Below are positions 44,042 through 61,206 of a stretch of 64,000 nucleotides of DNA, piece after piece. Made by a program: the position numbers and the translations under genes. The DNA lies in the NCBI GenBank assembly GCA_947496605.1, contig CANMDF010000001.1, positions 124,001 to 188,000 of the forward strand, given 5' to 3'. Position 1 is the stretch's first letter. The number at the start of each line of letters is the position of its first letter. Source of the stretch: an uncultured Paracoccaceae bacterium. Its GTDB lineage: Bacteria; Pseudomonadota; Alphaproteobacteria; Rhodobacterales; Rhodobacteraceae. The notes beneath the pieces were generated by a model. That model did not search any database. It was not told where the DNA came from and was given only the letters and a program-made list of their open reading frames with translations.

Positions 44042-44128
44042 GCGGTCGTGGCGGAATTGGTAGACGCGCAGCGTTGAGGTCGCTGTGAGGTAACACTCGT
44101 GGGGGTTCGAGTCCCCCCGACCGCACCA
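44042..44128 (+). tRNA. tRNA-Leu (anticodon GAG)
   Basis: 87 bases with encoded CCA. Acceptor stem GCGGTCG (44042-44048) pairs with CGACCGC (44118-44124); the D-loop, a 5-pair anticodon stem CAGCG/CGCTG with loop TTGAGGT (anticodon GAG at 44076-44078), a class II long variable arm and the T-arm (GGGGG TTCGAGT CCCCC) are all visible. The 3' end is the attachment site of the island; the gene remains intact. Confidence 0.97.
44113..44128 (+). repeat. Left attachment site within tRNA-Leu (attL)
   Basis: The 16-base sequence CCCCCCGACCGCACCA at the tRNA 3' end recurs exactly at 60626-60641. With three mismatches the match extends 8 bases further into the T-arm (44105-44128 against 60618-60641). 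This is the classic core-site duplication left by a tyrosine integrase. Confidence 0.85.
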
Positions 44129-44303: not shown

Positions 44304-44789
44304 TTACGCAAGTTTAGCCTTAGAAAGACTTTGCGATAGGAGGCGTTGAATTTCTCTCTTAAGTCGATCAATTTCGCGAGTAATTGTGGTGTGATTGAGG
44401 TCTTTCGTCTCTTCGTTGAGATCACCGACCAAGACATCGAAATCATCAGTAGAGAGTTGATGCCATCCAGGAACCTGATCGCCATCTTCTGCGCGTACAG
44501 CGAGAAGAACTGAGTTGAGTTGACGGCTGACATAGCATGCGTCGGAAATCACCATATCCAAGGTTGCTCCGACTCTGCTGTGGCACCAGTCGCCAGCACG
44601 TGTGTGTAATTGATCCAAGTTATTTACTACCACGGCCATTGGTTGCCGAACGTTGGCTTGGTGCAACGACATTCGTTGTGAAGCAGAGAATTGCTTTCGA
44701 GACCATGAAAAATTTATACATATGCCAACCCATGCCGCGACCGCCGCAATCACGCCTGACCACGCCGCGATTTCGGTAGCAGTTGCCAA
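44304..44789 (-). CDS. Small membrane-anchored protein, third gene of the GHKL/STAS-like operon
   Basis: I do not recognise this 161-residue protein. It has one N-terminal membrane helix (WSGVIAAVAAWVGICINF, about residues 10-27), then a basic, mostly helical cytoplasmic part and a C-terminal coiled-coil-like segment (ITREIDRLKREIQRLLSQSL). It begins 2 bases after the stop of the STAS-like gene at 44792, so it belongs to that operon and might anchor the complex to the membrane (inference). It is the island gene nearest to the tRNA; 175 non-coding bases separate it from the tRNA. Confidence 0.7.
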   Translation of the reverse strand: MATATEIAAWSGVIAAVAAWVGICINFSWSRKQFSASQRMSLHQANVRQPMAVVVNNLDQLHTRAGDWCHSRVGATLDMVISDACYVSRQLNSVLLAVRAEDGDQVPGWHQLSTDDFDVLVGDLNEETKDLNHTTITREIDRLKREIQRLLSQSLSKAKLA

Positions 44790-44791
44790 TG

Positions 44792-45127
44792 TTAAGCTGC
44801 TTCCGGATGCAACCCAACGGATCGGTCTAACTTCAACCGCGCTAAGCCGATACGGATATCTTCTGCCAGATGCAGTGGTAACTTGCTCAGATTATAATGT
44901 TGCTCAAAGCTATCAAATCCGATGACATCTGCAGACCGGCCAAAGAATCCCTGAACAAACGATGGTGCAATGGTATCAATGTCAGCAGGCCCAATCAAAA
45001 AGTGAACCTCGCCGTCTTTATCTTTTTCTCCGAGCGCAAAGAAATCGCGCGCAGCTAGGCCGCGCGGATGGCCAGCAACCATCCGTACTTTGCCTTGTGT
45101 CAAGAGTTCGAGGTCAATATCAGCCAT
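44792..45127 (-). CDS. STAS-like (DUF4325-type) protein
   Basis: 111 residues. The central part (FLIGPADIDTIAPSFVQGFF, then GRSADVIGFDSFEQHYN) resembles the small STAS-like DUF4325 family, where an Asp/Ser-containing loop precedes a helix with a conserved Phe. STAS proteins bind GHKL anti-sigma-type kinases. Here the gene overlaps by 8 bases the gene of a GHKL-like protein, which supports a two-protein switch (inference). The fold assignment rests on pattern only. Confidence 0.6.
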   Translation of the reverse strand: MADIDLELLTQGKVRMVAGHPRGLAARDFFALGEKDKDGEVHFLIGPADIDTIAPSFVQGFFGRSADVIGFDSFEQHYNLSKLPLHLAEDIRIGLARLKLDRSVGLHPEAA

Positions 45128-46613
45128 TGATAGAGTTCTCCAAATAATCTTTGTCCAAAGTGAAACCCATAGTTACTAGTGTACCACGAAAGTCGTTTTC
45201 GAGCTCAAAAAGGTTTAAACTTCTGGGCGGATCATACTCTGAGTCGTTGTCATTTAGCCATATCGTTCTTTTTTGACCAGAATGCGGCACCCCGCTCCTA
45301 CAGTCCGGAAACCCTATGTGCAGGCATGTTCTACCAGATATGACGGCCATCTTCGCTTCACTTTGATCGTCTTCAATCCCTGCTAAGTCGCCGAAAAAGA
45401 ATATAATCTCGCCAAAACCAGTTCCACCTCTATTCTCCTCATATGCTGTATCATCAGACGTTACAGTGTCTTGTAGGGCGTAGATGGTACGTAGGTGAGC
45501 ATCAGGCACGTCACAACCGGCAAGTGAATGCCGATGCCGTGATACGTATTCTTCCATGCCTACCTTTATCGGACCTTTTGCGTTGAGCATTGTCTCAGAG
45601 ATTGATGAACCTATACTTAACAACGCCAAATGGCAACGGAACGTTGGATTCAGAGAATCTCCACGTTTTGCCATGAATCCAGAAATAATCCAGTCGCCGT
45701 CATCGGGCAATGTAGGGTCACTGTAGCGTTCAGCGTTGTCACAGCACTCGCCCACGATGGTCATAACTAGCTTTCTGCCACCGCGCGTCAGTCGCTGTTC
45801 CGAAACCTCTCCAAGCCATTGAGAGATCAATTCACATAATTCTGTCCCAACTTTTTCTTTGGTTTGAGGATCAAGCTGTACGGTGGGGGAATCAGTTTTT
45901 CCAGCAGGCCTCCTCATGCGAAGAGGAAGCGCCCAGATGTCTTTTTCCTTTGACCAAACGGGCTCAACGTCAATCCGCAAGGCTTCATTCAGTTTGAGCG
46001 CTTGAACGATTTTTGACATTGGGTTGCTGATCTTCCCACCATCGAATACTGGGGCCATGTCTGGCCGCATGGCTGCCAAGACCAACCATGGACCAAGATC
46101 CATGCAGTAAGGGTCTTCATAATCTACATCTACGCTCAGGCACTCAGCCTCCGCTCTTGCTATCTTTGCCAAGACATTAGCTGTGGCAACGGGATTATGA
46201 AGAAATGAGAAATCTTCGACAGTGATATTGGTGGTTTTTCGAGAGCGAAGTCGTCTAGCCATTGGTTGCCATAGCTGATGACGATTATGAAGGAAGCCAT
46301 CCATAATGACAGAGGCCTTGAATTTGGCGATCAACACCTCTGTTTCGATATTGTTGAACTGAATACTGCCTTCTGCGCGTTTTGCAGCAACAATCATACG
46401 TCGCGCGATTGAACTCACCTTCTGATTTACGGCTTGCGCGGATGACCTAGCTTCGCCGCTTAGTCCTTCAAGTGGCACACGGTTTCTTTTTCGGAAAATG
46501 TGCGCTCTCAACCGAGCAGATTGAAGTTCGTCAAGGCCCTCAAATTCAGACCAACTGCTAACGCCATCTAAAGTCAGGATTTTGTCTACGTTAGGAAAAT
46601 AATAGTTATTCAA
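45120..46613 (-). CDS. GHKL-type ATPase with N-terminal STAS-like region
   Basis: 497 residues. Residues ~128-215 (ITVEDFSFLHNPVATANVL, then DLGPWLVLAAM and GGKISN) resemble a STAS-like fold. Residues ~280-485 resemble a GHKL ATP-binding domain: N-box IVGECCDNAERYSD (288-299), GIG-like LLSIGSSISE (~332), glycine loop ENRGGTGFGEI (393-403) and GTLVTMGF (478-485). The start is TTG 46613, directly preceded in frame by TAA, with no ATG before residue 73 and a weak ribosome site. It may be regulated at initiation or slightly truncated. It heads a three-gene operon. Role unknown; cargo defence or signalling is inference. Confidence 0.65.
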   Translation of the reverse strand: MNNYYFPNVDKILTLDGVSSWSEFEGLDELQSARLRAHIFRKRNRVPLEGLSGEARSSAQAVNQKVSSIARRMIVAAKRAEGSIQFNNIETEVLIAKFKASVIMDGFLHNRHQLWQPMARRLRSRKTTNITVEDFSFLHNPVATANVLAKIARAEAECLSVDVDYEDPYCMDLGPWLVLAAMRPDMAPVFDGGKISNPMSKIVQALKLNEALRIDVEPVWSKEKDIWALPLRMRRPAGKTDSPTVQLDPQTKEKVGTELCELISQWLGEVSEQRLTRGGRKLVMTIVGECCDNAERYSDPTLPDDGDWIISGFMAKRGDSLNPTFRCHLALLSIGSSISETMLNAKGPIKVGMEEYVSRHRHSLAGCDVPDAHLRTIYALQDTVTSDDTAYEENRGGTGFGEIIFFFGDLAGIEDDQSEAKMAVISGRTCLHIGFPDCRSGVPHSGQKRTIWLNDNDSEYDPPRSLNLFELENDFRGTLVTMGFTLDKDYLENSING

Positions 46614-46756: not shown

Positions 46757-47251
46757 CTACGATGAACTCGCCACAACCAAAGGCGGCTCATTCGGAAACG
46801 AACTTGCATCAAACCACTTAAACGCGGATCCGTCGTGGTTCTCTTGATCGCCATGCACGATAGGGTAGCCGTTCTGAACATGCCGTATAAGCCCCGCACG
46901 GAAGGCACGTAGATCCAGCAACTGCCAATGCTCGACGCTGCGCCCGTCCTCACTAGCATGGCCGTAGAACATCCAGTCGCCATGACCGTTCACCACCTTA
47001 GACAGCTCTGTTTGAGCCCCTGAGGCCACCTTAGAGCGGATGGTGAACTGATTAGGATAGCGGCTGTGATAGCCGGGACGGCGGATGCGCACAGCGACGC
47101 GGGTATCGCGGGCATCCAGCATCATCAGGTCGGTTGCTTGCTTCTGGTCCAACTCATCAGGGGCGACCTTTAACAGGTGCGCCCCTATCTGCCTCTTAAC
47201 CTCCGGCAGGAATTGATCGGACCAAGTCCGGTTGGTTTGGTAGGTGATCAT
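46757..47251 (-). CDS. Hypothetical protein, last gene of the HTH-controlled operon
   Basis: Not recognised. 164 residues from ATG 47251 (upstream in-frame codons overlap the preceding gene and are unlikely). The pattern of acidic residue, RVAVRIRRPG, a strand FTIRSKV, TELSKVVNGHGDWMFYGH and RAGLIRHVQNG could fit a PD-(D/E)xK-like nuclease core, with Asp, Glu and Lys spaced suitably, but this is weak. It starts 7 bases after the stop of the upstream gene. The ribosome site is poor, suggesting coupling. Confidence 0.65.
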   Translation of the reverse strand: MITYQTNRTWSDQFLPEVKRQIGAHLLKVAPDELDQKQATDLMMLDARDTRVAVRIRRPGYHSRYPNQFTIRSKVASGAQTELSKVVNGHGDWMFYGHASEDGRSVEHWQLLDLRAFRAGLIRHVQNGYPIVHGDQENHDGSAFKWFDASSFPNEPPLVVASSS

Positions 47252-47258
47252 TTCGTAT

Positions 47259-47999
47259 TCAGCTAATGCTAGCTTGGCGCATGATGGCCGCTGCCATCTG
47301 GTCAGACCACTTGCATGCATCGGGATTGAGCGCCTTGTGGAAGTACTCAACGCAGGACCACGCATGCAGGGCTTCCGCCTTGATGACAACACCGGCCATA
47401 GAGCGCTCCTCTGTGGCCATAATAGCTGATACTGCGGCGTGCAAAGCGTCGCGGGTTTCGCTGACGCGGTCTTTCGCGCCTTCAATCCCGGATGCCTCAA
47501 CGATGCGGTCAAACTCAGCCCAATAATCGCGCGCCGGTTCGATCAACGCCCGTTCTTTCTCGGCCCAATCGAACATGTGCTTTGCACCACGCTTTGACGG
47601 CGTCCGCGCCTTTCGTTCCGCCTCGGCAAAGCTACGTTCAGCACTGTTCTGGAAGGTCTCAGCAGTGCCGATACTTGGAAAGACTTTGATGTCTGCATTC
47701 GGATATGGCGCGACCTCAATCCCGTGACCATCAATCTTTGTGTAGCGCCTACTGCTTTCGGAATACCGTATCAGATCAAGGTCCGGATCGGGCACTTGTG
47801 GTTGCCATTCTGCGAGGATCCACTCAACGCTCTCACAGGCATCAGTATGCGCCTTGGCAAGGGCAGGTAAAGCATCTGCCAACTCCACCAGCGCGGGGAC
47901 TTCAGTTGGTGCTGAGTGGGTCGCTGTCGCTGCTGTTGATGCGGCGGCAATGCCCATGAGGATGTTGCGGCGTGATAGATTTGCTGTGGTGTTGATCAT
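47259..47999 (-). CDS. Hypothetical protein with Tat-like signal sequence
   Basis: 246 residues from ATG 47999 (GAGGG 7 bases upstream). The N-terminus (NLSRRNILMGIAAASTAATA) has the twin-arginine plus hydrophobic stretch of a Tat export signal, cleaved perhaps near THSA. The mature part is helical, charged and rich in Ala, Glu and Trp, with no domain I know. An exported protein in a phage-like island suggests an envelope effect on the host, but no role can be stated. Confidence 0.7.
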   Translation of the reverse strand: MINTTANLSRRNILMGIAAASTAATATHSAPTEVPALVELADALPALAKAHTDACESVEWILAEWQPQVPDPDLDLIRYSESSRRYTKIDGHGIEVAPYPNADIKVFPSIGTAETFQNSAERSFAEAERKARTPSKRGAKHMFDWAEKERALIEPARDYWAEFDRIVEASGIEGAKDRVSETRDALHAAVSAIMATEERSMAGVVIKAEALHAWSCVEYFHKALNPDACKWSDQMAAAIMRQASIS

Positions 48000-48755: not shown

Positions 48756-49004
48756 ATGACACCAGAGCAATTCAAAATGGCAAAGGCGGCTTTGGGGGTC
48801 AGCAACCCCGAGCTAGCAGAAAAGACAGGGCTTCATCGCAATACATTGAACAAATTGGACAAAGGTGAAGGCAAGGTTTCGACCGTGCAACACGTCCGTC
48901 TTGCTCTAGAAGCTGCGGGCATTCAATTCCTTGAAAGCGGAGATGTTGCAAAGAGTTTTGGTGTAGCTATTGAACGGAAAGCCGACTCGATCAACGGCGA
49001 ATAA
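48756..49004 (+). CDS. Small HTH (Cro/CI-type) regulator
   Basis: 82 residues with a five-helix XRE-like fold: FKMAKAALGVSNPELAEKTG as helices 1-2 and LHRNTLNKLDKGEGKVS as recognition helix and turn, followed by VRLALEAAGIQFLESGD typical of short mobile-element regulators. GAGG precedes ATG 48756. It reads divergently from the 48074-46757 operon, across three operator-like sites, and is followed 29 bases later by a recombinase gene it may also control. Confidence 0.85.
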   Translation: MTPEQFKMAKAALGVSNPELAEKTGLHRNTLNKLDKGEGKVSTVQHVRLALEAAGIQFLESGDVAKSFGVAIERKADSINGE

Positions 49005-49033: not shown

Positions 49034-50467
49034 ATGCACGACGAATGGCGGCCTGACCTATCGAGCGAAACTGCAGTACTGCGACTAAAGCCAAGAAAGG
49101 CTGCATATTTTAACCTCATCCAGTTTTGTCGGCACATTGGAATCAACATCTATGACGATGGAACAGGATATTGGGTAGCCAGAGTTCGACGTAAAGATGG
49201 CGCTTACACCCAACAACGGCTTTGCCTTGCTTTTCACGGCGGGGTCTTTGAAGTCGACTTTGAAGAGGCGTGTAGGAGAGCAGATACTTGGTTCAATTCG
49301 GAGTCGGTCGCAAAATTAGCGTCTGAACCATATCCGCGTGGCTCCAAGTCGGCCATTTGTATCACTCCGATAGGAGATGTATTCTCGATGGGGCATGCGC
49401 TGAAAGACTATTTGGAATGGAAGCTTCTAGCGGCAACTACCTCGCACTTCACCGTACTTGTCAGCCTAGTCAACTACCATCTAGTCCCCCGGCTGGCTCA
49501 CATCCCCCTAGAAGAATTTGATGGTAAGGCCTTTCACAAACTCGCTTACGACGTTCTTGAGACTCCTCCCAAGACTGGAAAGGTAACACCGTCCCATCGC
49601 TACAATATCCGTCAAATGTCTGAAGATCAGTTGCGTAAACGGAAGAAGACTTTCAACACCCTTGTGGGAATACTTCGAGGAGCGATTTCGCTCGCTTGGG
49701 AGCGCGGTAATATCGAGAACGAGAAACCACTTCGTTCAATTCATCGGCTCCCCAATATTGATAGGCCCAGAGTTGTTTTTTTGGACCGGAATGAATGCCG
49801 TCAACTGATTGAAGCAAGCCACCCAGACCTGAAGAACCTGATCTTGGGAGCTCTCTATACTGGCTGCAGAGCCGGTGAATTGCGGGCCGCACTTGTTGGT
49901 GATTTCTCAGCGCACACCAAATCACTTTTTATCGCTAGTCCAAAGGGTAGGAGAACGCGTTATGTGCTTCTGCCTGACGAAGGAGTAGCGTTCTTCAGCA
50001 GAATTACAGCGGAACGTGGCGCTAGTGACAGACTCTTTCGCAAAAGGAACGGACGAGTATGGGGCGCTGAATACAAGTCGTATTTCCAACAGGCTAGAAC
50101 AAAAGCTAGACTACCAGATCACCTGACTTTTCATGGCCTTCGACACACTTATGCGAGTCAATTAATCCAGAGTGGCGCGTCACTCCTTAGCGTTGCTGAC
50201 CAGTTTGGGCATACCGACACCCAAACGGTCACATCAACCTATGGTCACTTAACACTAAGGGGGAGGCTCGAAGATGTTAATCAGAACTTCGAGGCCATTC
50301 TCCCTCTCAATGAAGCAGAGTTAACGGTGCCGGTTGAGGCAAAAATCGAACAAAACGAACTGTCCTTGCCCAAGTTTCGACACCAAGATCCGAGCTCTTG
50401 GCCAAGGTCCAATTACTCACGATTTGATGGTGCAATTCTAGCTGATTTGAAGCCGAGCCAATCCTAA
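49034..50467 (+). CDS. Tyrosine-type site-specific recombinase (477 aa)
   Basis: A complete tyrosine recombinase catalytic domain in the C-terminal half: Arg 279 (TGCRAGEL), Lys 304 (ASPKGRRTRY), His 367/Arg 370 (HGLRHTYAS), His 393 (FGHTDTQTV) and Tyr 403 (STYGHL). The N-terminal 240 residues contain a core-binding helical region and an arm-type leader. It is downstream of the HTH gene in the same direction and its end overlaps the opposing recombinase gene by 4 bases. It is internal to the island, so it may belong to an older nested element. Confidence 0.93.
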   Translation: MHDEWRPDLSSETAVLRLKPRKAAYFNLIQFCRHIGINIYDDGTGYWVARVRRKDGAYTQQRLCLAFHGGVFEVDFEEACRRADTWFNSESVAKLASEPYPRGSKSAICITPIGDVFSMGHALKDYLEWKLLAATTSHFTVLVSLVNYHLVPRLAHIPLEEFDGKAFHKLAYDVLETPPKTGKVTPSHRYNIRQMSEDQLRKRKKTFNTLVGILRGAISLAWERGNIENEKPLRSIHRLPNIDRPRVVFLDRNECRQLIEASHPDLKNLILGALYTGCRAGELRAALVGDFSAHTKSLFIASPKGRRTRYVLLPDEGVAFFSRITAERGASDRLFRKRNGRVWGAEYKSYFQQARTKARLPDHLTFHGLRHTYASQLIQSGASLLSVADQFGHTDTQTVTSTYGHLTLRGRLEDVNQNFEAILPLNEAELTVPVEAKIEQNELSLPKFRHQDPSSWPRSNYSRFDGAILADLKPSQS

Positions 50468-51456
50468 TGTGGACTAATCGGAGTTTCATTGAAGGCATCT
50501 GAGACCTTTGCCGCAGCGGACTGCGAGGCGAGCAACCTTCGCGCATATCGCGCAGGCATTTCAGGTGAAGTCCACCGTCCAGCCACCATTATGGAAGACA
50601 AATCGCAACCCAAGCGAAAAGCATCTTGGACACCGCCAACGCGCGTACTGTGCGCAGAGACATCAGTTCTTCCAGTACATCGTCTAATAATCCTCGATAG
50701 CGTGGCAGGGTCGATTGGTGTCTTGTTGCCACCCTTTTGCGATTTCGTAAGAATTGGTTGATCTGCCTTCATGCCAGCCTCATCAATCCAGTCGATAACG
50801 GCTTCAGTTCCCTTAGCAGACAGATAGGCATAAGCGCCTTGACCGTTTTGATCTGTCTTGGATCGGGTGACATAGAGCAAACTGCTTCCGTCATCTTGGC
50901 GCTGCAAGTCTTTAACACGAAAATTGCAGATTTCTGAAGCGCGGCACCAACTGTCAGTGGCAATCCACAGCAAAGCCTTATCTCGCTTCTCTATTCTAGA
51001 GTTACCTAACCGCGCAATTGCATCAAGTACTTCTTTCTTCCCCAAAGGAGGAGCTTGTTTGGTCGCTGAGCCGTACTTACGTTTAACGGACTTCAAAGCC
51101 AGCTCAACTAAACGATGGGTTGTCGGAGTAGGAAGGAAATGTGAGCGATGAAGTTCAGCTATGCCCCAAAGTCTTGTCTCAATAGTTGTCGCCGCAAGCC
51201 TACCTCCCATGTCGTCAACCCATGCCGCCACCGTAGAAGGTGAAATAGGAGGTTCTGCTTCAAGCCCTCTCTTGCCGCACCATTCTCCGAAATGTCTCAG
51301 GATCATCCGGTAGTGCCTTAGCGTCGTTGGTGCAAACGCCGCCTCAGAACGCTGTCTATATTCCTCTATCAGCTTCGAGCGCTGGTTGTCTGGTAGCCTT
51401 GAGAGCTCATTCAAGAGCTCGGTTCGTTGTGCTTGACGGTCATATGCGTAGCTCAT
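50464..51456 (-). CDS. Tyrosine-type recombinase/integrase (330 aa)
   Basis: A 330-residue tyrosine recombinase: core-binding domain in residues ~30-125 and catalytic residues Arg 172 (WCRASEI), Lys 200 (TRSKTDQN), His 269/Arg 272 (AHSTRVGG), Trp 295 in place of the second His (AGRWTSPEM) and Tyr 304 (ARYARR). All are compatible with activity. It lies tail to tail with the 49034 gene, sharing 4 bases. The protein is unlike that neighbour and unlike the terminal integrase. Confidence 0.93.
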   Translation of the reverse strand: MSYAYDRQAQRTELLNELSRLPDNQRSKLIEEYRQRSEAAFAPTTLRHYRMILRHFGEWCGKRGLEAEPPISPSTVAAWVDDMGGRLAATTIETRLWGIAELHRSHFLPTPTTHRLVELALKSVKRKYGSATKQAPPLGKKEVLDAIARLGNSRIEKRDKALLWIATDSWCRASEICNFRVKDLQRQDDGSSLLYVTRSKTDQNGQGAYAYLSAKGTEAVIDWIDEAGMKADQPILTKSQKGGNKTPIDPATLSRIIRRCTGRTDVSAHSTRVGGVQDAFRLGCDLSSIMVAGRWTSPEMPARYARRLLASQSAAAKVSDAFNETPISPH

Positions 51457-58663: not shown

Positions 58664-59281
58664 CTAGTAAAGCAGATGTCTCGCTCTTGCATACGCTGTC
58701 TGGATCAGAAATTTCTCATATTCGTCAGGCTCTTTGGCAATGATTTTCCTGACGGCGTCATTGTCTAGAGACTCGCCAATTTCGTTCAATACGTCGCATA
58801 TTACGCTCTGAATCGTAATGATATCGCCAGTAGTCGCGTTCTTTCCTTCTTGCACCCCTCGTATTCTAAGTAGATCAGCCGCCATTCGGACGTATCCATT
58901 GCGGGCGGCCTGATCTCCCTTATGCCGACCTGCGCGTTTTGGGCGGCCATTTGCTAATGCTAGGGCCGCGAATTCCACAAGAGGGCGCGGCAAACTAAGT
59001 TGCTGAGAAACATGATATCGAAATGCAAAGACTGCGTCGTCCCAGACATCTGGATCTTCAAGAGCCGCTCCAGCAAGCAACTGCGCTTCGCGATCATCTA
59101 GCTGTCGTAGGGAGCTAATTCCAAGAGTAGTGCGCAGAAAATCCCGCTCAAAATTCTGCCGCTTCTGCTTAATTTTCCCGTTTTCGTCTAGTGCATTCTT
59201 AAAGCACCAGCGGACTAAATCATGAGGGTCATCAGGCGGACACAATTCAGGATAGGCCTCGAAAATATCCTTGATCCTCAT
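58664..59281 (-). CDS. Hypothetical protein coupled to the integrase gene
   Basis: Not recognised. 205 residues; its ATG 59281 overlaps the integrase TGA (ATGA). N-terminal IKDIFEAYPELCPPDDPHDL, then a charged helical body; a basic stretch (NGRPKRAGRHKGDQAARNGY) and a C-terminal DNDAVRKIIAKEPDEYEKFL. It may modulate excision or have a defensive or regulatory role; position is the only clue. Confidence 0.65.
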   Translation of the reverse strand: MRIKDIFEAYPELCPPDDPHDLVRWCFKNALDENGKIKQKRQNFERDFLRTTLGISSLRQLDDREAQLLAGAALEDPDVWDDAVFAFRYHVSQQLSLPRPLVEFAALALANGRPKRAGRHKGDQAARNGYVRMAADLLRIRGVQEGKNATTGDIITIQSVICDVLNEIGESLDNDAVRKIIAKEPDEYEKFLIQTAYARARHLLY

Positions 59282-60471
59282 CCAGTCAACCTTACCAAGT
59301 CGCCTAAACCTTTGTTCAGGTGCTCAGCCCAGCGCTCCATCAATACAGCTCGCTTTTCAATGAAGTCCGTCCGCTTATAAGAGCGTTCAACACCAGTGCC
59401 GACAACATGACCCAAGCATGTCTCAGCAATCTCGTAGGGGGTTTCTGTCGTCTCTGCACACCACGTCCTAAAGCTGGATCGGAAACCATGAGGCCGCGTG
59501 TCCAAACCCTTGCGTTCCATGAACCGGCTCATCGTGGCATCAGAAATGACACCCTTACGAACGCTTGGAAAAAGGAAGCCATCACGCTCAAATTTCGTTG
59601 CCGCCTCGACAACACGCATGGCCTCAGTCGAAAGCGGCACACGAAATTCACTTGTTGCGTCTTTGCGCCCCTTCACCAGTTCTTCAGGTATCGTCCAGAT
59701 GTTGCCGTCTATCTGATCAAGGCGCAGGAACCGGATTGGTTTTGACCTCACTGCAGTCAGGATTAACAGACGCAATGCGAGCTGGCAGATACTGTCATCT
59801 AAGGACTTATAGAAGGTTGGTACGTCCTGCCACGGCATAGATGGGATATTCTTGACCTTGTGGCGCTGCTTGCCGAGAAGTGCCTTAGCTTTCTCTGTGG
59901 CTTGCAAGTCTACATCCAAACCAAGTGCTGCGGCATGCCGAATGCAGATGCTCAGGCGATTGAGCGCCTTCTTCGCCGTGTCAGCTTTCGTGTGCCAGAT
60001 GGGGGCAAGAGTGTCTCGGATGTCCCGCTGATCTATCTCAGACACGGGCGTCTTGCCCAAACGTGGCAGCACGTACAATTCCAATGGACTGAACCAACGG
60101 CCTGCTGAGCCATCGTCGCGCAATTCTGCTTTACGGCTTTCAAAAGCATCCAATGCAATATCACGCAGGACATGCAGCCTGCTTGCTGCATCTCGCCGGT
60201 CGCGTTCACGCTGCTTGATTGGATCTATGCCAGACCTGACGAGGGTTCTTTGAAGTTCCGCATACTCTCGTGCTTCCTTCAGACTGACATCGGGGAAGCG
60301 TCCCAAACCCATCTCCCTGCGCTTGCCATGAATGGTCACTCTGAGAAACCACTGTGCGCCGCCATCACGGCCTTGCTCGCGCTTATGAAACCAGAGCCCA
60401 CCGCCATCATTGTACTTTCCGGGCTCAAACCCGCGCAACGAAGCAGATGTGAGTTTGTTCATCGTTGGCAT
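59278..60471 (-). CDS. int: P4-type tyrosine integrase of the island
   Basis: 397 residues. The N-terminus (KYNDGGGLWFHKREQGRDGG, then GKRREMGLGRFPDVSL) is the DUF4102 arm-binding domain of the P4 family. The catalytic residues Arg 242 (TAVRSKPIR), Lys ~267-270 (VKGRKDA), His 328/Arg 331 (PHGFRSSFRTW), His 355 (CLGHVVG) and Tyr 365 (ERSYKRTD) are all present. ATG 60471 lies next to the arm-like repeat 60476-60494 and 155 bases from attR, so this is the recombinase most likely responsible for insertion into tRNA-Leu. Confidence 0.95.
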   Translation of the reverse strand: MPTMNKLTSASLRGFEPGKYNDGGGLWFHKREQGRDGGAQWFLRVTIHGKRREMGLGRFPDVSLKEAREYAELQRTLVRSGIDPIKQRERDRRDAASRLHVLRDIALDAFESRKAELRDDGSAGRWFSPLELYVLPRLGKTPVSEIDQRDIRDTLAPIWHTKADTAKKALNRLSICIRHAAALGLDVDLQATEKAKALLGKQRHKVKNIPSMPWQDVPTFYKSLDDSICQLALRLLILTAVRSKPIRFLRLDQIDGNIWTIPEELVKGRKDATSEFRVPLSTEAMRVVEAATKFERDGFLFPSVRKGVISDATMSRFMERKGLDTRPHGFRSSFRTWCAETTETPYEIAETCLGHVVGTGVERSYKRTDFIEKRAVLMERWAEHLNKGLGDLVRLTG

Positions 60472-60494: not shown

Positions 60495-60625
60495 CTCTAA
60501 ATATAGATCAACTTGGGATAGGATGAAACAGTTTGGCGCAGCAAATATGGGGTTTGATGGGCTTTCCTCCTAAATGAAAGGGCTAAATGACACAGGATGG
60601 GGTAGGGTAGAATTGTAGTTCACGG

Positions 60626-60641
60626 CCCCCCGACCGCACCA
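60626..60641 (+). repeat. Right attachment site (attR)
   Basis: Exact copy of CCCCCCGACCGCACCA from the tRNA 3' end. No tRNA structure is present here; it is only the core repeat, with partial identity reaching back to 60618. Chromosomal genes resume at 60664. Confidence 0.85.
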
Positions 60642-60663: not shown

Positions 60664-61206
60664 CTAGCCTGTGATCCACTGACCGCTTTTGATCCCATCA
60701 AGTGTCCAATTGCCTACGCGCCATCGTACCAAACGCAAGGTTGGAAAACCGATATGTGCCGTCATGCGCCGCACCTGACGATTGCGGCCCTCGCTGATTG
60801 TCACTTCAATCCACGTATCGGGCACTGATTTGCGAAAGCGCACGGGTGGATCGCGTTCCCAAAGTTGGGGTGGGTCGATCAATTTGACCTTCGCGGGACG
60901 TGTCGGGCCGTCTTTGAGGGTTACACCGTCGCGCAGGTCTTGCAGGTCTGTGTCCGTCGGCGCGCCTTCCACTTGCACCAAATAAGTTTTGCTCATTTTG
61001 TTCTTGGGGTCAGCGATCCTGGCTTGCAGTTTGCCGTCATCAGTCAGCACCAACAAACCCTCGCTATCGCGGTCAAGCCGCCCTGCGGGATAGACACCGT
61101 GGACATCGACGTATTGCGACAGTGTTGGGCGTGGTGAGGGGCTCTTGGCGTCTGTGAATTGCGACAACACGCCGAACGGTTTGTTCAATAGGATCACTTG
61201 GGACAT
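60664..61206 (-). CDS. rluE: 23S rRNA pseudouridine synthase, RluE type
   Basis: 180 residues of the RsuA/RluB/RluE group without an S4 domain. Catalytic motif YPAGRLDRDSEGLLVLTDDG, with the Asp of GRLD; start LLNKPFGVLSQF; later SKTYLVQVEG and EGRNRQVRRM. Length and the missing S4 domain point to RluE, which modifies U2457 in E. coli 23S rRNA. First chromosomal gene to the right of the island. Confidence 0.9.
   Translation of the reverse strand: MSQVILLNKPFGVLSQFTDAKSPSPRPTLSQYVDVHGVYPAGRLDRDSEGLLVLTDDGKLQARIADPKNKMSKTYLVQVEGAPTDTDLQDLRDGVTLKDGPTRPAKVKLIDPPQLWERDPPVRFRKSVPDTWIEVTISEGRNRQVRRMTAHIGFPTLRLVRWRVGNWTLDGIKSGQWITG

Follow-up and report, generated by a model that had tools for sequence, protein, structure and literature searches.

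A three-gene kinase, STAS and membrane-protein unit on a tRNA-Leu island as a probable variant of the VapKSC-type design

Introduction

In the main text of Chambers et al. 2026 (PMC13373217), VapK-VapS-VapC (VapKSC) is described as a three-gene defense operon whose STAS protein, VapS, restrains the toxin until phosphorylated, a phospho-mimic releasing it, and CapK is described as a kinase that is activated by single-stranded DNA (ssDNA) and phosphorylates CapS. The word "transmembrane" is absent from that main text, and none of its four uses of "membrane" concerns an effector. Here we compare with these systems three genes, A, B and C, encoding a STAS-GHKL kinase-like protein, a small STAS protein and a membrane protein, which lie on a mobile island within 64,000 nucleotides of an uncultured Paracoccaceae bacterium (contig CANMDF010000001.1, positions 124,001 to 188,000; this whole stretch is called the window).

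We lean modestly toward reading the trio as a kinase-gated membrane-effector cassette, VapKSC-like in build, with a membrane protein replacing the toxin. It is probably a variant of the VapKSC-type design, working like VapKSC without being a member, and C most likely occupies the toxin's place, because the gene order and kinase fold are the same and the STAS group is related. Membership itself was rejected because the third gene is not a VapC/PIN nuclease: it has no PIN match and encodes a membrane helix and bundle instead. An earlier note, made from the letters of this DNA, had proposed a membrane-linked partner switch, possibly directed against phages, with sigma-B control as its parallel. 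The kinase domain, B, the helix and the island position have been borne out; sigma-B gives way as a model to VapKSC, the nearest worked-out parallel, in which a like pair restrains a toxin.

Results

The three-gene unit and its conservation

The unit comprises the following genes.

45120..46613, minus strand: gene A, 497 residues, TTG start; STAS-like and GHKL serine-kinase-like protein
44792..45127, minus strand: gene B, 111 residues; DUF4325-like STAS protein (from the open reading frame [ORF], a 17-member alignment and the DUF4325 link)
44304..44789, minus strand: gene C, 161 residues, TTG start uncertain; one membrane helix and a cytosolic helical bundle (from the ORF, a model and hydropathy)

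The ORF coordinates confirm the three leftward genes of the earlier note, with an 8-base overlap between A and B and a 2-base gap between B and C. Pfam, NCBIfam, PADLOC and PHROGs yielded no accepted match to any of the three proteins, and none of the three matched a PADLOC-DB 2.0.0 model of a known or candidate defense system up to an E value of 1.

Searches with A turned up 3 other genomes among the 385 of a class sample, 5 others among the 390 of an order sample (one a remnant) and a single other among 56 from the genus, the last being a genome already seen in the order sample. A phylum sample of 398 gave three other matches, one already known and two fragments; extra copies came from genome contigs and viral contigs. 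The deduplicated set, window included, holds 17 complete copies, and A, B and C follow in order in 17/17, with spacings of -44 to +1 bases between A and B and -4 to +35 between B and C (some starts were set by hand). The linkage of homologues to both partner genes, which the earlier note had named as a check, is thus seen in every complete copy. Thirteen of these copies came via A, the others (L030, L031, L035 and L036) solely via a search with B. A profile of C retrieved C in 16 of the 17, ten of which had built the profile, and six viral-contig copies independent of it scored E values of 1.8e-18 to 9.6e-5; C of L035 was assigned from its position and hydrophobic start. Excluded from the set were L034, whose contig begins within the unit, L012, a fragment with three stops, and L023 and L024, in which A is reduced to its end while B and C are open. 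These last two remnants (L023:7877-9073 and L024:7328-8454) keep end pieces of A of 85 and 74 residues beside intact B and C.

Such a distribution bears on whether the trio might be an ordinary stress-response module with no role in conflict. The copies at L017 and L025 do have as neighbor a gene that by eye is uvrB-like, but the unit is sparse and horizontally spread, occurring in 2 of the 56 genus genomes, the window's included, with those two only 30 percent identical; we regard this alternative as very improbable. In the L017 and L025 copies, A is 31 percent identical and the orientation to the uvrB-like gene differs. Induction of CapK-CapS requires UvrA and UvrB, according to the main text of PMC13373217.

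Gene A, a GHKL protein with an altered G1 box

Features of A are as follows.

45975..46238, minus strand: STAS-like domain, residues ~126-213, beta-alpha-beta-alpha-beta-alpha in the predicted model
45147..45941, minus strand: GHKL kinase domain, residues ~225-489
46269..46271, minus strand: codon of W115, just before the STAS-like domain (alignment of 17)
45735..45737, minus strand: codon of N293, the N-box Asn, invariant in 17/17
45615..45617, minus strand: codon of S333, occupying the G1-box Asp position; 16 of 17 copies have Ser and 1 has Asn

The predicted model of the 497-residue protein has a GHKL fold of the SpoIIAB/RsbW kind, the other check that the earlier note had named, and its STAS-like stretch shows the expected secondary-structure pattern. 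Both E289 and N293 of the N box are kept in all 17 aligned copies. Position 115 is Trp in 16/17 and Phe in 1/17; as a guess, W115 is the counterpart of CapK W68 and VapK F54. In a profile alignment S333 falls opposite the Asp of the D-x-G motif, which is retained in the six canonical DUF4325-partner kinases aligned, and an intact G1-box D-x-G as in SpoIIAB/RsbW was accordingly rejected for A.

Gene B and its link to DUF4325

Gene B carries a candidate phospho-acceptor:

44960..44962, minus strand: codon of S56, Ser in 17/17

The window's B has no match to the Pfam PF14213 (DUF4325) model. The DUF4325-like character claimed earlier holds through intermediates: a Spirosoma relative of B scores 23.1 against the DUF4325 gathering cut-off of 23, and in profile comparisons B matches Spirosoma B with a probability of 98.2 and Spirosoma B matches a canonical DUF4325 set (eight proteins, window B excluded) with 90.6, against 34.7 (E 4e-4) for the B profile and that set directly. 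The best Protein Data Bank match of the canonical profile is Escherichia VapS (E 6.5e-5); Spirosoma B alone does not match VapS. S56 aligns one residue later than the phospho-Ser of SpoIIAA (S-to-A change in 1tid; weak alignments). B has no helix-turn-helix (HTH) and no DNA-binding match.

Gene C, a fast-changing membrane protein

The membrane segment of C lies at the N terminus:

44715..44771, minus strand: membrane helix, residues 7-25 (hydropathy)

Hydropathy and the predicted model (predicted local distance difference test score, pLDDT, 90.3; 11 sequences) agree with the earlier note on a single membrane helix: one N-terminal hydrophobic segment (hydropathy 2.13) is followed by a long helix and a helical bundle. 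A hydropathy of at least 1.6 is reached by 22/27 C proteins, 1/27 A and 0/27 B, and Lys and Arg are more abundant after the segment in 25/27 C. With a mean identity of 0.154, C is the fastest changing of the trio (0.335 and 0.360 for the other two); its conserved Trp residues are W10 (17/17) and W109 (15/17). A histidine kinase (HisKA) identity for C was rejected: the E value of 0.017 falls short of the cut-off, C of L022 lacks His entirely, and in the 17 aligned copies His never reaches 10 in any column. On the viral contig L034 (434-976), C appears by eye to continue into an HNH-like tail.

Distant relatives and DUF4325 operons

With A of L015 as query, relatives at 23-27 percent identity were found on plasmids of Spirosoma, Salinivibrio, Providencia, Vibrio rarus and Pantoea (seven records, five of them opened; the remaining two are Pantoea records of the same place). 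A B-sized and a C-sized gene stand next to A in 5/5 opened plasmids, and the B profile retrieves the plasmid B in 5/5 (E 7e-17 to 1.6e-4); none of the five plasmid C is retrieved by the C profile. A Pfam DUF4325 search of 61 family genomes gave four loci in three genomes, three of them with a hydrophobic-segment third gene; four plasmids and one further plasmid also have such a gene, so that the order GHKL, STAS-like, hydrophobic-segment gene is seen in eight of the nine DUF4325 loci looked at. The N-terminal segment is weak at L102 (hydropathy 1.47), the kinase of L075 is split in two, B and C of L078 are 393 bases apart, and the third frame of L099 is unannotated. A Leptospira plasmid (L104:2962-5764) has a GHKL, STAS-like and membrane trio beside a nucleotidyltransferase/HepT-like pair.

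The exception among the nine is a second GHKL-DUF4325 pair in the window's own genome (G000:C4:174297-174464; L076:557-1728), with no membrane gene after it; it adjoins a methylthiotransferase-like gene (by eye), and its kinase has a weak DrmA row. This pair is one reason to consider that the trio is a membrane-sensing partner switch without a toxin, in which C is a sensor or anchor and A and B signal to a target coded elsewhere, such as a host or prophage regulator for lysogeny control. STAS/GHKL pairs are classically regulatory (SpoIIAB, RsbW), and C, single-pass with a cytosolic bundle, resembles a sensor stalk, with its weak HisKA likeness. Yet apart from phage-type methyltransferases and uvrB no fourth gene recurs by eye in the listed loci, B lacks a DNA-binding match, and islands, prophage-like contigs and plasmids all carry the trio intact. 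We consider this switch unlikely, if the most serious alternative to a membrane-effector cassette.

Genomic company

Neighbors chosen by eye at 12 loci were scanned with PADLOC, with no background rate, and five loci had a defense-type match nearby: an AbiJ-like gene overlapping the A start (L013), PDC-S26 (L019), type I restriction-modification (L021), Zorya II 2 kb away (L037) and PDC-S15 (L100). L020, L030 and L036 had methyltransferases only, possibly plain phage genes; L040 gave a single weak row (E 7e-4), and nothing came from L018 or L024. Surroundings looked prophage-like by eye, no classifier being used, at L013, L020, L026, L027, L030, L031, L035 and L036, and tRNA genes occurred in 3/12 loci of one set (L019, L021 and L023) and 0/10 of another.

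The trio's carriers, an island, prophage-like contigs and plasmids, raise the alternative of an addiction or superinfection-exclusion cassette serving the mobile element, with C blocking entry of related phages or the module killing cells that lose the element. The viral-collection contigs and plasmids, and the one membrane helix of C, would suit it. A whole kinase exceeds what exclusion requires, however, and the wider B group has a damage-responsive antitoxin among its relatives; we judge this reading improbable.

The island at tRNA-Leu

The island is delimited by the following features.

44042..44128, plus strand: tRNA-Leu(gag), island attachment gene
44111..44128, plus strand: left attachment (att) repeat, 18 bases, differing from the right copy at one position and identical to it over the last 16
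60624..60641, plus strand: right att repeat, exact 16 bases at 60626-60641
59278..60471, minus strand: island integrase, Arm-DNA-bind_3 and Phage_integrase, adjoining the right att copy

A pseudouridine synthase gene lies at 60664, beyond the integrase, and in the relatives G412 and G631 it directly follows the same tRNA; therefore the window carries a 16.5-kb insertion at tRNA-Leu. Empty att sites are present in L069 and L070. The trio is the cargo closest to the tRNA, and the att repeats, integrase and empty sites in relatives uphold its earlier placement at the tRNA-proximal end of a mobile island. The relatives G698 and G1107 have different genes at this spot, in G698 (L067:1493-9121) one encoding a protein of 1981 residues that includes a TPS secretion domain, adjoining a gene that by eye resembles its transporter.

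Elsewhere in the island are two more tyrosine recombinases, convergent with a 4-base overlap (49034-51456), and beside them a small HTH-like gene (48756-49004). Upstream of A, two mutually overlapping genes have no Pfam match (46757-47999).

Discussion

For a kinase-gated membrane-effector cassette we infer B-C binding, phosphorylation, a trigger, toxicity of C and an anti-phage role. At rest, the STAS antitoxin B would be bound to the cytosolic helical bundle of C, keeping C silent. A signal of infection or DNA-damage stress, perhaps ssDNA by a guess from CapK, would switch A on, and A would phosphorylate B at a Ser at the start of the second helix, for which S56 is the candidate. Phosphorylated B would release C, and free C at the inner membrane could cause growth arrest or cell death ahead of phage release.

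A number of results weigh against this scheme. Kinase activity of A is not assured, because the G1-box Asp is replaced by Ser. The profile of the window's B branch fails to retrieve VapS, S56 aligns one residue after VapS S48 in weak alignments (S48 being chain residue 66 if the tag is 18 residues, from 134 against 116, the latter taken from the paper's residues 94-116), and eight ordinary STAS proteins reach a probability of 0.1 with the B profile and 10.6 with the DUF4325 set. C belongs to no known toxin family, what it matches in fold is a helical bundle of a common kind, and C profiles of different branches fail to match one another. Among 50,697 phage genomes, neither of two A queries found a match. 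The window's scanned neighbors have no defense match, giving regulator-type rows only, for 48756-49004, and the count of defense neighbors elsewhere is not a rate because those neighbors were chosen by eye. At L017 and L025, beside the uvrB-like gene, no mobile gene was noticed in the stretch read.

Should the cassette be as proposed, the recently found kinase-antitoxin switch would drive more than one type of killer, with one branch using a nuclease and another a membrane protein. A testable function is offered for DUF4325 and for trios of "hypothetical protein" genes on plasmids and prophage-like DNA. More tentatively, it is possible that the largely uncharacterized DUF4325 groups form a wide anti-phage class of kinase, STAS antitoxin and membrane effector in several phyla, with VapKSC merely its nuclease version, and that kinases of the window's branch, having lost the adenine-reading Asp, bind a different nucleotide as substrate or signal. 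Should the absence of the G1 Asp prove functionally important, the nucleotide used by such kinases would become a question in itself.

Comparison with known systems

Unlike SpoIIAB-SpoIIAA and RsbW-RsbV, the trio joins a STAS-like domain and the kinase in one protein, includes no sigma factor and has a membrane third gene. With CapK-CapS, as the main text of PMC13373217 presents it, the trio shares a STAS-like and GHKL kinase-like protein with a putative STAS substrate and, at some loci, a location beside defense genes, but B, at 111 residues, has no winged-helix or HTH match and the trio ends in its own membrane gene. It differs from VapKSC in its third gene, a membrane helix and helical bundle in place of the VapC/PIN nuclease, in the one-residue offset of the invariant Ser of B from S48 and in the Ser that replaces the G1 Asp of A; it is like VapKSC, as that main text describes it, in its order of STAS-like and GHKL kinase-like protein, small STAS protein and putative effector, and DUF4325-type B proteins match VapS. 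Set against PF14213 operons, the window's B lacks a match to the Pfam model and A lacks the D-x-G that the six aligned canonical kinases keep, whereas the succession of GHKL protein, STAS-like protein and hydrophobic-segment third gene is common to the trio and eight of those nine loci.
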